Positions 7,963 through 58,472 of a stretch of 64,000 nucleotides of DNA are shown in pieces. Source of the DNA: Megasphaera paucivorans. Lineage in GTDB: Bacteria; Bacillota; Negativicutes; Veillonellales; Megasphaeraceae. Position numbers and translations under genes: made by a program. The stretch's first letter is position 1. Each line of letters starts with the position of its first letter. The notes under the pieces are model-generated. The model was not told the DNA's origin and made no database searches. It worked only from the letters and a program-made list of their open reading frames with translations. The stretch lies in contig NZ_FNHQ01000003.1 in the NCBI RefSeq assembly GCF_900103535.1, positions 62,001 to 126,000 of the forward strand. Reading direction: 5' to 3'.

Positions 7963-8003
7963 TAAAGCCCCTGTATTTGTGTTTAACAAATACAGGGGCT
8001 TCA
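7963..8003 (-). terminator. Terminator of typA
   Basis: A 16-bp perfect inverted repeat (7965-7980 with 7986-8001, core GCCCCTGTATTTGT) with a 5-nt loop. It lies about 100 bp past the typA stop and just before amtB. On the minus strand the stem is followed by TTATTA. Confidence 0.8.
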
Positions 8004-8103
8004 TTGCCAGTTAAATTAAATTTAAGCTCATTCTACATTAAATATTTGCGGCTGTCAATAAATATTTTTTGTATACATTAATGTTTTCACCGCAAATTCA
8101 TTT

Positions 8104-9912
8104 TTATTTATTACGAGCTGCCTTTTTACGATCATGCTGATCAAGAATAGCTTTACGCAAACGTATGCTTTTCGGTGTTACTTCAACCAATTCATCATCA
8201 TTAATCCATTCTAAGGATTGTTCCAAACTCATAACCCGTGCCGGAACCAAACGCAATGCTTCATCGGCAGAGGAAGAACGTGTATTACTCAAATGTTTCT
8301 TTTTACAAGGATTGACATCAATATCCACATCACGATTACTTTCGCCGATAATTTGACCTAAATAAATTTTCTTGGTCGGCTGAATAAACATGGTTCCACG
8401 ATCCTGGAGGTTAAAAATACCATAGGCTGTTGTTTCTCCTGTTTCGAATGCAACCAGAGATCCCCGTGTACGTCCAGGAATTTCGCCCTTCCAAGGTGCA
8501 TATCCGTGAAAAACATGGTACATAATGCCGTTTCCCTTCGTACCGGTAAGAAATTCCGAACGGAAACCAATAAGACCTCGGGCTGGAATGATAAATTCCA
8601 AGCGTGTATATCCTGCAAGATCTACCATATTTACCAGCTCAGCTTTACGAGTCCCCAGTGATTCCATAACAGCCCCCATAAATTCCTGAGGCACATCAAT
8701 TGTCAATTGTTCCAATGGTTCACATTTACGGCCGTTGATTTCTTTAAGAATGACACTGGGTTTACCAATCTGCATTTCATACCCTTCACGGCGCATTTCT
8801 TCTATAAGAACTGCAATATGGAGTTCCCCGCGTCCAGATACCTTAAACGCATCTGCACTGTCCGTTTCTTCTACACGCAGACTAACATTGGTTTGTACTT
8901 CGCGGAAAAGCCGATCACGCAGATGGCGGCTGGTTACAAAATCTCCTTCTTGTCCGGCAAAAGGACTATCATTCACATAGAAAACCATAGACAATGTCGG
9001 TTCATCAATGTCGATAGTAGGCAAAGCTTCCGGGTTTAATGGATCTGCCACCGTTTCCCCAATTTTGATATCTTCAATACCAACAATAGCCGCTATTTCT
9101 CCCATGTAAACTTCTTCTGTTTCAGATCGCTTCAATCCTTCATATGTATATACCCGGCCAATTTTTGCTTTACGCTGGCTTTCACCATCTGTAATAACAA
9201 CCTGCTGATTTGTTTTCATTTTGCCGCGTACAATACGTCCAATCGCAATTTTCCCAACGTAATCATCATAGTCAAGTGTTGTCACCATAAATTGTAGGGG
9301 ACCTTCCGGATCTCCTTTAGGGCACGGACAGTTTTCAATAATACATTTAAAAAGAGGTTCTAAATTATCACTTTCGTCCTCCATATGTGCTTTAGCGATG
9401 CCATCACGTCCGTTAGCATAAATGACAGGAAAATCAAGTTGATCATCATCTGCTTCCAGTTCCATAAATAATTCCAACACTTCGTCTTCTACTTCTTCAA
9501 CACGAGCATCCGGTTTATCAATTTTATTAATGACAACGATGGGTTTTAATTTTTGTTCCAACGCTTTTCGCAGCACAAACTTTGTCTGCGGCATAGGTCC
9601 TTCAAATGCATCGACAAGAAGCAATACGCCATCAACCATATTTAATACTCGTTCAACTTCGCCGCCAAAATCGGCATGCCCCGGAGTATCAACAATATTA
9701 ATTTTCACACCTTCATGCATAACCGATGTATTCTTAGACAAAATTGTAATGCCACGTTCACGTTCAATATCACCAGAGTCCATCACGCGTTCAGCTACTT
9801 TTTCATTAGCACGAAAAACATGGCTCTGTTTCAACATAGCATCGACTAAGGTTGTTTTACCATGATCGACGTGGGCAATAATCGCTATATTACGTATATC
9901 CTTACGTTCCAT
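8104..9912 (-). CDS. typA: Ribosome-associated GTPase TypA/BipA
   Basis: 602 aa, normal length for this translational GTPase, which helps 50S assembly and stress or cold growth. G-domain motifs: AHVDHGKTT (G1), RGITI (G2), DTPGHADF (G3), NKIDK (G4). Domain order is EF-Tu-like G domain, beta barrel, EF-G-like III and V domains, and the BipA-specific C-terminal domain with [12 protein letters not shown] and [18 protein letters not shown]. The ATG follows AGGAG. It is monocistronic with its own terminator. Confidence 0.97.
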
Positions 9913-54735: not shown

Positions 54736-55347
54736 TTACCGAAAGGGTATATCTATCCCTCTTTTGAGAGATTCATACAGTCCATTTTTCATAAAGTAAT
54801 AGTAATCATCTACTTGTTTTCCCTGCAATATATGCAAGGCTTCCAACATTAATTTTGTAAATTCCAAAGCAGCCGTTCCATTCGCCGTAATAATAGTATT
54901 ATCGGCAACAGCTTGCTCATCTACATACTCATTTTCATTATTATATCGTTCTTTGGCGTATGATTTTAATTCGGTTAATGCATTACTCGTATGCTTTACA
55001 TTGTTCAAAATACCATGTGCTCCTAAAAATACGGTAGCATCGCAAATGGCACCTATAGGAACTGCATGTTTTACTGCAATATGTACCAGTTTCATTACTT
55101 TTTCGGCTTCCTGCGTTCTCCATGAATTTCCTCCTGTCAAAACTAGTCCTGAAAAATCTGCAGGAGCATTTTCTATTGTATAATCAACCGCAGCATGTAA
55201 TCCTCCGATAGAAGTACATAGTCCAGGTTCAATGCCAACATATTTAATTTGATAATCAGAATCAATGCTCTTAACTGCTGCGGTAAGAAAAGCAGCTTCC
55301 CAATCTGCAAATTCCGGCAATATAACGACCAACAGAAGTTTTTTCAT
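54736..55347 (-). CDS. DJ-1/PfpI-family (type 1 glutamine amidotransferase-like) protein
   Basis: 203 aa. LLLVVILPEFADWEAAFLTA at the start, LVLTGGNSWR, and the nucleophile elbow GAICDATVFLGAHGIL with the reactive Cys. ATG 55347 after GGAGG is used instead of a start 13 codons earlier. It could be a deglycase, protease-like or chaperone member; unknown. Neighbours (nitroreductase, MerR-type regulator) point to an electrophile or redox-stress unit. Confidence 0.87.
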   Translation of the reverse strand: MKKLLLVVILPEFADWEAAFLTAAVKSIDSDYQIKYVGIEPGLCTSIGGLHAAVDYTIENAPADFSGLVLTGGNSWRTQEAEKVMKLVHIAVKHAVPIGAICDATVFLGAHGILNNVKHTSNALTELKSYAKERYNNENEYVDEQAVADNTIITANGTAALEFTKLMLEALHILQGKQVDDYYYFMKNGLYESLKRGIDIPFR

Positions 55348-55395
55348 AAAATGCCTCCAGACTGTCTCACGATAACTCCATTCCATATAGTTAAA

Positions 55396-55989
55396 TTACT
55401 CCATCCACTCTACAACTTCCGCTATCTTCTTTCTTGGCCGCGGTTCCGGCTGCTCCTCAGAATACCCTAAAGCAATAGCTGCCAGCAATTCTCCATCACG
55501 GTCCATCCATTCACATAATTCCTGATAAGCAAAATAAATATCACATATCCAAAGACTGCCGATTCCTCGCTCTGTAGCTGCTAACAACATATTTTGCACA
55601 GCTGCACTAACGGATTGGATATTGCACACCTCAAACACTCTATCTTCATCCGTCATAGGAGCAAACATGTTTTTCCCCATCGTATTGAGAACAAAAATAA
55701 TAACTGGAGCTTGTTTCATTATTTCTATAGTATGCCGCGCCCCTTGAATAAATTGTACACTGCCAGGCAAACACGCCGGCCCCTTTTCCTCGCGCTGCAC
55801 TCCGTTACAAAAAGCCTGCAGCATCTTCTCTTTCGCAGTTCCCTGAATAACGATAAACTTCCAAGGCTGTCTGTTTTTAGCTGATGGTGCTTTTATCCCA
55901 CTTTCTATAATATATAAAATGTCTGTTTTGTCTATTTGACGGGGTAAAAATTTTCGAATACTTCGCCTCTCCATGATCTCTTTAATCAT
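55396..55989 (-). CDS. Nitroreductase-family flavoprotein
   Basis: 197 aa, FMN-dependent NAD(P)H oxidoreductase fold. IMERRSIRKFLPRQIDKTDI carries the RRS(I)RKF FMN-phosphate motif, and APSAKNRQPWKFIVIQGTAK and RGIGSLWICD follow. ATG 55989 is chosen, with AAGGA a little upstream; a longer frame starts 11 codons earlier. It is downstream of the MerR-type gene and upstream of the DJ-1-like gene. Confidence 0.92.
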   Translation of the reverse strand: MIKEIMERRSIRKFLPRQIDKTDILYIIESGIKAPSAKNRQPWKFIVIQGTAKEKMLQAFCNGVQREEKGPACLPGSVQFIQGARHTIEIMKQAPVIIFVLNTMGKNMFAPMTDEDRVFEVCNIQSVSAAVQNMLLAATERGIGSLWICDIYFAYQELCEWMDRDGELLAAIALGYSEEQPEPRPRKKIAEVVEWME

Positions 55990-56067
55990 TTGGCAGCACG
56001 TCCTTTCCAAGTTATATTTCAATCAGACTCTATGCTGCAGTTGGCATATATCGCAAAATACAGCATA

Positions 56068-56454
56068 TTATGCGTGAATTGTTGACATAGTATTCATTTT
56101 CTCAATTTTTTGACAATACATATTAATTTTATCGTTTATTTTAGACATATGCTCTTGCAGTTCCATTATTTGATCGCTAAGATACTGCCTGTGCTGTATC
56201 AGCATTTCTTTTCGTTCTAAAAGAGTATCCTCTCCCTCAGCACGTAATCCGGCATAGCGGGCAATTGTTTTTACAGGCATCCCGGTGGCTTTCAATCGCT
56301 TTATAAAATCAATCCACAATACATCCGTTTCTAAATAATACCGGCGTTTATTGAAATGACGCCTTGGCTTGATCAACTGCTCCTTTTCGTAATATCGCAA
56401 TGTGTGAATACTTAACTCTGTACGCTTCGAAAATTCTCCTATAGAATATTCCAA
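56068..56454 (-). CDS. MerR-family transcriptional regulator (AdhR-like)
   Basis: 128 aa. HTH plus wing YSIGEFSKRTELSIHTLRYY and EKEQLIKPRRHFNKRRYYLE, then a dimerising coiled coil. No metal-binding cysteine pattern at the C-terminus, so it resembles the aldehyde/redox-responsive AdhR/YraB-type group. Likely TTG start 7 nt after GGAG. Divergent from a short-chain dehydrogenase whose promoter has a 19-bp spacer and a central palindrome. Confidence 0.92.
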   Translation of the reverse strand: MEYSIGEFSKRTELSIHTLRYYEKEQLIKPRRHFNKRRYYLETDVLWIDFIKRLKATGMPVKTIARYAGLRAEGEDTLLERKEMLIQHRQYLSDQIMELQEHMSKINDKINMYCQKIEKMNTMSTIHA

Positions 56455-57488: not shown

Positions 57489-58073
57489 CTACTGTATATA
57501 TTGATAAAACAATCCATGATTTGTACAATACCAAAGAAGGGTTCCCTGTCCGCGTTTAGGAATCCGTACTTCCACATTCCATTCCGGATACTGCTTCATA
57601 ACTTGGATCATGTCTCCTCTGACAAACACTATAAACGAAATATAATGATCCTTTGTCATCGGATGAGCTGTTGAAATATACCACTCATCCTCCACCGTTT
57701 CAACAGATAGTTGTTCCTCATCGGATGCCTTTTTTAATTCTTGCGGCGCTAATATTTTTCCACAACAGGAAATATCTGCATTACCTGTGCACAATGTAAT
57801 ATTATGACAGCTCGGACATACATAATACATTATGTTTTTCATATTTCCATTTACATCTGTGCTGGGTATCAAATCGCCCGCCAAAAGCCGCTTCATATCT
57901 ACCCCTAGACACTCCGAAAGTGCAGAAAGCAGAGATACATCTGGATATCCAACACCTCGTTCCCACTTCGAAATAGTCTTATCACTGATATTCAACTTAT
58001 CTGCCAACTGCTTTTGTGTTAAATTTCGTTCATACCGGACAGTCCGTATACTATTTCCAATGTTATTATTCAT
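57489..58073 (-). CDS. XRE-type HTH fused to a desulfoferrodoxin-like (desulforedoxin + SORL) module
   Basis: 194 aa. Residues 6-62 are an XRE HTH (RNLTQKQLADKLNISDKTIS, KWERG). Residues 84-108 reproduce the desulforedoxin iron site: CPSC (86-89) and CC (103-104). Residues 115-192 match the superoxide-reductase-like domain: AHPMTKDHYISFI (His137, His143) and YCTNHGLFYQ (Cys183, His186). The first His ligand of true superoxide reductases appears replaced by Gln121. This suggests an iron-containing redox sensor coupled to DNA binding. ATG after AGGAGG. Confidence 0.85.
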   Translation of the reverse strand: MNNNIGNSIRTVRYERNLTQKQLADKLNISDKTISKWERGVGYPDVSLLSALSECLGVDMKRLLAGDLIPSTDVNGNMKNIMYYVCPSCHNITLCTGNADISCCGKILAPQELKKASDEEQLSVETVEDEWYISTAHPMTKDHYISFIVFVRGDMIQVMKQYPEWNVEVRIPKRGQGTLLWYCTNHGLFYQYIQ

Positions 58074-58472
58074 ATTTTTATTTCCTCCTGTATATTAAAT
58101 TATACGGAGAGGTGTCAGAAAATACAATCAACGTTTCGTAGAGTCTGCAACATACGATTCATCCAAAACAATATATGCGATAGGTCTTGCTGCAAATGAT
58201 ACACCTGATTTTTTCATATATTGCATTGCAGACAAATACCATATGTAATTATATGTTTTACAGTAAAAATATTTTTATAATTGTCTATATACTATAAAAA
58301 CTATGCCTTCTGTATAGTTTTTTATTCGTATTTTAAAAATATTATTGCAATGGTATTTGGTATATAAAATACCATTGCAATAATTGAACAGTAATGATAT
58401 AATATGTATTATAAAAGGGTTGTAGATCATGTCACATATACCAGATATGATTTTTACTTACTGTTCCTTTTC
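58074..58472. other. Gene-free region between antiporter and XRE-SORL genes
   Basis: 399 bp, AT-rich, with no coding frame I can support. It holds a perfect 18-bp inverted repeat ATTATTGCAATGGTATTT (58341-58358) / 58367-58384 with an 8-nt spacer. A weaker hairpin AAAACTAT/ATAGTTTT lies near 58296-58323. These may end the antiporter transcript or act as operators. Confidence 0.6.

Follow-up and report, generated by a model that had tools for sequence, protein, structure and literature searches.

Superoxide and oxygen sensing in strict anaerobes is poorly mapped. The proteins closest to the one described here are found in the superoxide reductase (SOR) database SORGOdb of 2011, which placed 19 of 325 proteins in an HTH-Dx-SOR class (PMC3116461). 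Its description defines the desulforedoxin (Dx) motif as CX15CC and suggests new functions for multi-domain SORs; in the parts of that text available to us, the HTH-Dx-SOR class is named without a regulator function, an operator, or a target, and the word "transcription" has 0 occurrences in the main text (PMC3116461). A role for Glu47 and Lys48 of the active-site loop of the D. baarsii SOR is named in the title of a reference cited in the same source (PMC3116461). No functional study of the HTH-Dx-SOR class was found in the literature searched. The second point of reference is the Isf family of flavoproteins, whose cysteine motif is CX2CX2CX5-7C. According to the available parts of the source (PMC3164229), reduction of O2 and H2O2 is their proposed role; oxidative stress induces some of them in Entamoeba, where silencing of two Isf genes left H2O2 tolerance unchanged. 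TrtA of Treponema denticola was considered as a relative and rejected, as the portion of its description consulted gives a 104-aa XRE protein with no recognized domain in the rest of the chain.

The window, by which we mean the whole stretch of 64,000 nucleotides that was analyzed, contains a gene for a protein with this architecture. We propose that it is probably an autoregulated XRE-type transcription factor in which a modified SOR iron site serves as the redox sensor. The gene and its parts are as follows.

57489..58073, minus strand: coding sequence of the HTH-Dx-SORL protein, 194 aa (ATG-started open reading frame and domain matches)
58084..58089, minus strand: Shine-Dalgarno sequence AGGAGG, 10 nt before the start
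57894..58049, minus strand: HTH_3 (Cro/CI-type) DNA-binding domain, residues 9-60 (Pfam and structure matches)
57762..57818, minus strand: desulforedoxin-type Cys4 site, C86-x2-C89-x13-C103-C104 (family alignment, codons)
57507..57716, minus strand: SOR-like (SORL) domain, residues 120-189, with ligand residues H137, H143, C183, and H186
57714..57716, minus strand: Glu120 codon, in the column of the first catalytic His (family alignment)

The preliminary description had read an HTH, a desulforedoxin site, and a SORL domain in one chain, and Pfam, a 31-member family profile, and an AlphaFold2 model all confirmed this. The HTH_3 match at residues 9-60 (E 1.9e-14, 53.8 bits) lies well above its curated cut-off of 23 and places the protein in the XRE/HTH_3 family. 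The C-terminal part matches Desulfoferrodox (PF01880) at residues 135-189 with 22.4 bits, barely above the 22.2 cut-off, and TIGR00320 (dfx_rbo) at residues 83-189 with 29.3 bits (E 8e-7), which is below the 146.9 cut-off. The family profile matched desulfoferrodoxin structures over residues 81-191 (E 1e-13). The AlphaFold2 model of the 194-aa protein, built from an alignment of 3 sequences only, has a pLDDT of 80; it matched desulfoferrodoxin structures in Foldseek (E 7e-8). In structural comparison, 114-115 residues aligned with the T. pallidum SOR and with desulfoferrodoxins at Z about 12, and about 66 residues aligned with Cro/CI-type HTH domains (P22 c2, 434-type) at Z 9.6 to 11.7. The VIA-align list was mostly filled by HTH matches, and absence from it carries no meaning. 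The fusion is real, and a chance match is excluded by the profile and the model comparison. The CPSC...CC site is likewise present, and its CX2C...CC arrangement makes the protein a desulforedoxin-type Cys4 protein with CX13CC spacing.

Metal ligands were compared in two alignments, one with 49 and one with 74 family rows, each including three ordinary desulfoferrodoxins (SORs), in the larger one those that are encoded elsewhere in the window genome. The counts are based on 75 rows minus the stop-cut and gapped L083, giving 74, and on 73 rows at C183 and H186, where L024 is cut; 29 partial matches were left out. Among the Dx cysteines, the first three are present in all 74 rows and the fourth in 73 of 74; H137 is kept in 74 of 74, H143 in 72 of 74 (Glu in 2), and C183 in 73 of 73. 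The first-His column holds His in 52 rows, Glu in 18, Pro in 2, and Asp and Asn in 1 each (n = 74), and the last-His column (H186) holds His in 63, Asp in 8, and Cys and Gly in 1 each (n = 73). Conservation of the iron ligands, put forward earlier as a check, therefore holds for the Dx cysteines, H137, H143, and C183, which are invariant or nearly so, but not for the first and last His, which vary.

The earlier claim that a catalytic His had been replaced stands as to the loss of the first His, but the replacing residue is Glu120 and not Gln121, which follows it. In the family alignment, Glu120 falls in the His column, where His-keeping members have their His, and there is no gap within the family between this column and H137. 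The distance from the first-His column to H137 is 3 residues shorter in the family than in ordinary SORs, and the Dx loop is x13 in the window protein vs x15 or x16 in the SORs of its own genome. Where those SORs read EKH, the window protein reads Asp118-Glu119-Glu120 and lacks the Glu-Lys-His active-site-loop motif of superoxide reductase enzymes; the SOR-type Lys beside the first His occurs in only 2 of the 74 family rows. A complete center II, Fe(His)4(Cys), is also missing, with Glu120 in place of the first His and the other four ligands present. Most replacements at the first and last His are residues able to bind metal, and poor ligands (Asn, Pro, Gly) account for 4 of the 32 departures in the two columns. 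This pattern fits a site that holds metal and is no longer obliged to be a SOR catalyst, which is an argument, and not a proof, that a metal site has been retained.

Inside otherwise unrelated intergenic DNA, the upstream regions of the family genes share an operator-like block. It was spotted by reading these regions and then tested by pattern counts; exact-dyad enumeration gave a weak signal, with the best dyad in 6 of 75 regions and up to 4 in shuffles. The element has the core CTCTACG-N3-CGT. Its right half differs by protein group (CGTTTATTG vs CGTAGGTAG), such that the group A element is CTCTACG-N3-CGTTTATTGA and the group B element CTCTACG-N3-CGTAGGTAG, with a true palindrome, CTACG-N3-CGTAG, in six rows of the latter. 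The window form is CTCTACG-N3-CGTTGATTG at 58125-58143, and the operator pattern has a single match in the window at up to 3 mismatches, that one exact. The promoter features are as follows.

58125..58143, minus strand: predicted operator CTCTACGAAACGTTGATTG, exact pattern match, conserved upstream of family genes
58122..58127, minus strand: -35-like hexamer TTGTAT, overlapping the predicted operator
58099..58104, minus strand: -10 hexamer TATAAT, 17 nt from the -35

Across the family, 63 of 75 genes have CTACGNNNCGT within 150 bp when 1 mismatch is allowed, 47 of them exact, against means of 2.12 (up to 1 mismatch) and 0.06 (exact) in shuffled upstream regions. The 12 element-free genes include seven that lie inside operons (L091, L094, L086, L089, L085, L087, and L075); there, the element is found ahead of the GIY-YIG-like gene of the operon and has no more than 2 mismatches to CTCTACGNNNCGTNGATTG. 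Five of them (L089, L075, L085, L086, and L087) were read through the longer stretches L130, L137, L142, L143, and L144. A weaker element with 2 mismatches precedes L052, L054, and L092, and none was seen in the upstream regions of L059 and L060.

The position of the element within the promoter is fixed. Counted from it, the TA of the -10 falls at positions 37-38 in all but one promoter of each group (47 of 48 in group A, 14 of 15 in group B), with a free spacer, and the TTG of the -35 is present in group A and less so in group B (mean match 4.27 vs 3.07 of 6). The center of the palindrome is near -43, which we take to be where class II activators sit. This class II-like position slightly favors activation over repression, and a repressor overlapping the -35 would fit too. 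The fixed promoter position lends good support to the earlier proposal that a SOR module has been converted into a transcription factor, as does the recurrence of the element before a redox flavoprotein gene, described below. Judged from these sequence patterns, a regulatory role of the HTH-Dx-SORL protein is well supported, with binding itself predicted. Between the MFS gene and the predicted operator, the window also has a perfect 18-nt inverted repeat at 58341-58384 (ATTATTGCAATGGTATTT, with an 8-nt loop), which is A+T-rich.

Because the pattern was defined from the upstream regions of the family, its presence at a family gene is no independent evidence; this comes instead from sites before unlinked flavoprotein genes and from genomes without the gene. 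In 40 gene-carrying genomes, CTCTACGNNNCGTTKATTG at up to 1 mismatch gave 59 sites in 39 genomes, and a reversed control pattern gave 3 sites in the same 40. Forty of the 59 sites lie 46-145 bp before the match to a family gene, across 39 genomes. Another 40 genomes in which our searches found no family gene contained 3 sites, two of them at gene remnants. The group B pattern had 9 sites in 9 of 26 genomes, all just upstream of a family gene (control, 1). In G583 (L197) and G584 (L198), genomes otherwise without the regulator, the operator survives before decayed remnants of the regulator gene.

Two recurrent kinds of likely target emerge from the 19 sites that are not at a family gene. Seven of them (L178, L179, L180, L182, L184, L185, and L188) precede an FMN-reductase gene whose product carries CX2CX2CX7C, and five (L177, L181, L183, L186, and L195) precede a gene for a GIY-YIG-like protein of about 115 aa. 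The remaining seven lie inside long reading frames and are taken as chance. Decayed pieces of HTH genes lie between site and target at L184, L177, L181, and L183, and a short intact HTH does so at L195, so these five loci descend from operons. No HTH remnant was seen between site and target at the other six flavoprotein loci. The intact HTH of L195 (G335, contig C5) is a stand-alone protein of 74 aa that lacks a Dx-SOR part. It stands under the same operator, with the GIY-YIG-like gene behind it, some 1.8 kb away from the operator of the full-length regulator.

The flavoprotein gene is also found directly downstream of the regulator and co-oriented with it at 11 of 55 loci, a count that leaves out L116, L122, L047, L132, L056, and L138 from 61 because the gene was uncalled. 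Its start lies 11-18 nt past the regulator stop at L107, L109, L131, L139, and L140, 22 nt past it at L054, 42 nt at L052, and 107 nt at L119, and the called start overlaps the regulator at L112, L129, and L141. In G016, a congener of the window genome, the flavoprotein is broken in two pieces (L112). Adjacent flavoprotein genes occur at 8 of 15 Glu-clade loci vs 3 of 37 others (Fisher p 0.0009, a guide only, as kinship is ignored); this test omits L113, L114, and L115, where the stretch holds no gene downstream of the regulator. The linked flavoprotein has an FMN_red domain, and CX2CX2CX7C is present in 18 of 18 proteins; this combination of an FMN-reductase fold with a compact CX2CX2CX5-7C motif is that of the Isf family. 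The only solved structure found for it by sequence is "Cd1" (7d38), not an Isf entry.

The second kind of target is more difficult to place. For the protein of about 115 aa, Pfam gave no hit with E up to 0.01, and relaxing this limit to 10 added only weak, unrelated hits, but the protein matches a PADLOC homing endonuclease (E 2.2e-7), and its single-sequence model (pLDDT 69) has its best matches to I-TevI (E 3.6e-3). This target class has no obvious link to oxidative stress and counts against the redox-sensor reading, as does the unchanged H2O2 tolerance after Isf silencing in Entamoeba. At L094, L130, L137, L142, L143, and L144, a second form of the regulator ends an operon under the same operator; the other genes of the operon are the GIY-YIG-like gene, an AAA_5 + VWA gene, which is split in L143, and, at five of the six loci, a DUF6530-type gene. 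The gene of about 680 aa upstream at several loci had been a candidate for FeoB and was rejected, since it is an AAA_5 + VWA protein.

A maximum-likelihood tree of 72 rows (L083, L023, and L024 excluded) places the rows with Glu, Asp, or Asn in the first-His column in one group of 18 with support 98/92. By this topology, the His-to-Glu change is a single event that defines a clade. The H186 His-to-Asp change appears in five separate places (L015-L017, L057/L058, L092, L025, and L047). The window protein pairs with a protein of G510, from another class of the phylum, and the congener G016 is placed elsewhere in the same clade, which suggests horizontal transfer of the regulator gene. Near-full-length members are present in 48 of 380 genomes of the class of the window genome, in 11 of 199 genomes across the phylum, in 14 of 82 genomes of the class of G382 (some partial), and in 1 of 10 genomes of the class of G510. 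Named carriers in Bacillota are Acetoanaerobium noterae, a Monoglobus plasmid, and an Oscillospiraceae MAG, and a few close relatives are found on viral contigs. One such contig, L093 (MT835563.1, a "Bacteriophage sp." clone), encodes at 8001-9143 a 381-aa HTH-Dx-SOR protein whose extra C-terminal half looks GNAT-like by eye.

In the window genome itself, the search for a second operator site, with 1 mismatch allowed, found none. The flavoprotein has no orthologue there: the best matches elsewhere in the genome are 31-33% identical over the N-terminal half, and a scan of their surroundings with 3 mismatches allowed showed no operator. The place of the flavoprotein is taken by a convergent short-chain dehydrogenase gene. 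Only self-control is thus supported in the window genome. Genes in a row for a MerR regulator, a nitroreductase, and a DJ-1/PfpI protein occupy 54736-56454 (minus strand), next to a short-chain dehydrogenase gene; they look like a redox-stress cluster of their own, and the operator is absent from it. Among the three ordinary SORs, L009 and L011 (contigs C29 and C41) have a C-terminal tail with two extra cysteines that ends in GGCSPEFGGCKLE.

Desulfoferrodoxin dimerizes through its Dx-SORL unit. In the mechanism that we propose, the XRE-type factor would dimerize in the same way, and its C-terminal sensory part would be a desulfoferrodoxin with a rubredoxin-like Cys4 site and a remodelled SOR-type site made of Glu120, H137, H143, C183, and H186. 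It would bind 58125-58143, at the -35 box of the promoter from which it is itself expressed, and in this way control its own gene; in relatives, its control would extend to the Isf-type flavoprotein and to the GIY-YIG-like gene or operon. DNA binding may change when the iron module is oxidized or when an O2-derived species binds to the module. We infer from the patterns above that the protein binds the element, that the module is occupied by iron, and that the signal is O2 or ROS; the metal, the signal, and the direction of control are all presumed here. Oxygen or ROS is a plausible signal given that the linked target in relatives has the Isf-type CX2CX2CX7C. A more specific version, which we put forward tentatively and hold to be doubtful, is that the SOR became a direct superoxide- or O2-sensing factor by dropping the Lys and by using a clade-specific Fe(His)3(Glu)(Cys) site to gate an activator upstream of the -35. 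If it were true, strict anaerobes would possess a counterpart of SoxR that senses directly, acts at an operator of its own, and has an Isf-type O2/H2O2 reductase as a target.

Other readings share much of this evidence. The Dx and SORL sites might report iron or zinc occupancy, as in Fur or Zur, with redox incidental. The ligand columns, kept or replaced by other possible metal ligands, would suit such a metal-homeostasis regulator, and on the Monoglobus plasmid the gene is followed by one for a ZIP-family metal transporter. We think this rather unlikely, since the ZIP neighbor occurs at one locus only, the recurrent neighbor and the unlinked sites involve the flavoprotein, and no iron-uptake gene was recognized at any operator site examined. 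Ferrous SOR sites bind NO as a superoxide analogue, and NO on the ferrous SOR-type site might therefore release or engage DNA, with the recurrent redox flavoprotein as a sensible target. Nothing here separates NO from O2-derived signals, yet no NO-detoxifying gene (flavodiiron protein, Hcp) was recognized at the operator sites, and we regard an NO sensor as unlikely.

The protein could also be a working superoxide reductase, tethered to DNA or self-regulated through a chance fusion, for which sensing is not the job. It retains the fold and four of the five center-II ligands, and 52 of 74 family members keep the first His. Given that the catalytic Lys is missing in 72 of 74 rows, that the window protein has lost the first His, and that an operator and regulon pattern exists, this is very unlikely; a purely enzymatic role is not needed in a genome that already has three ordinary SORs. 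Finally, the element might belong to another regulator, with the HTH-Dx-SORL gene merely one of its targets, since in group A the element overlaps the -35 box, where any factor might recognize it. This is highly improbable: the element is present in 39 of 40 genomes with the gene vs 3 of 40 without it (two of the 3 at relics), its right half changes with the protein group, and all occurrences of the group B form (9 of 26 genomes) are at a family gene. We retain the autoregulated redox sensor built on a SOR site as our preferred reading. It would reuse the anaerobes' own superoxide-scavenging fold, and the operator, the promoter geometry, the likely targets in relatives, and the natural His-to-Glu swap make DNA binding, metal, and signal testable.

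Compared with known systems, the window protein is by architecture a member of the HTH-Dx-SOR class of SORGOdb, with the same order of N-terminal HTH, Dx, and SOR domain, but it has no intact SOR site: it differs by Glu120 in place of the first His and by a Dx loop of x13 instead of x15. With desulfoferrodoxin/2Fe-SOR (PF01880, TIGR00320; 1dfx, 2ji1), it shares the fold over residues 79-193 (Z 12), the Cys4 site, and H137, H143, C183, and H186, whereas it lacks the first His and the catalytic Lys and has gained a DNA-binding domain. It resembles XRE/Cro-CI regulators (HTH_3; P22 c2, SinR, ImmR) in its HTH fold and palindromic operator-like element and differs from them in having a Dx-SORL module for sensing; within the material seen here, the five-residue half-sites CTACG/CGTAG are confined to the HTH-Dx-SORL family. 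The linked flavoprotein has the same FMN_red domain and compact cysteine motif as the Isf family and is Isf-like by sequence, and the window genome differs in having no orthologue of it. The architecture was already known; within what was searched, the operator, the likely targets, and the Glu clade appear to be new.
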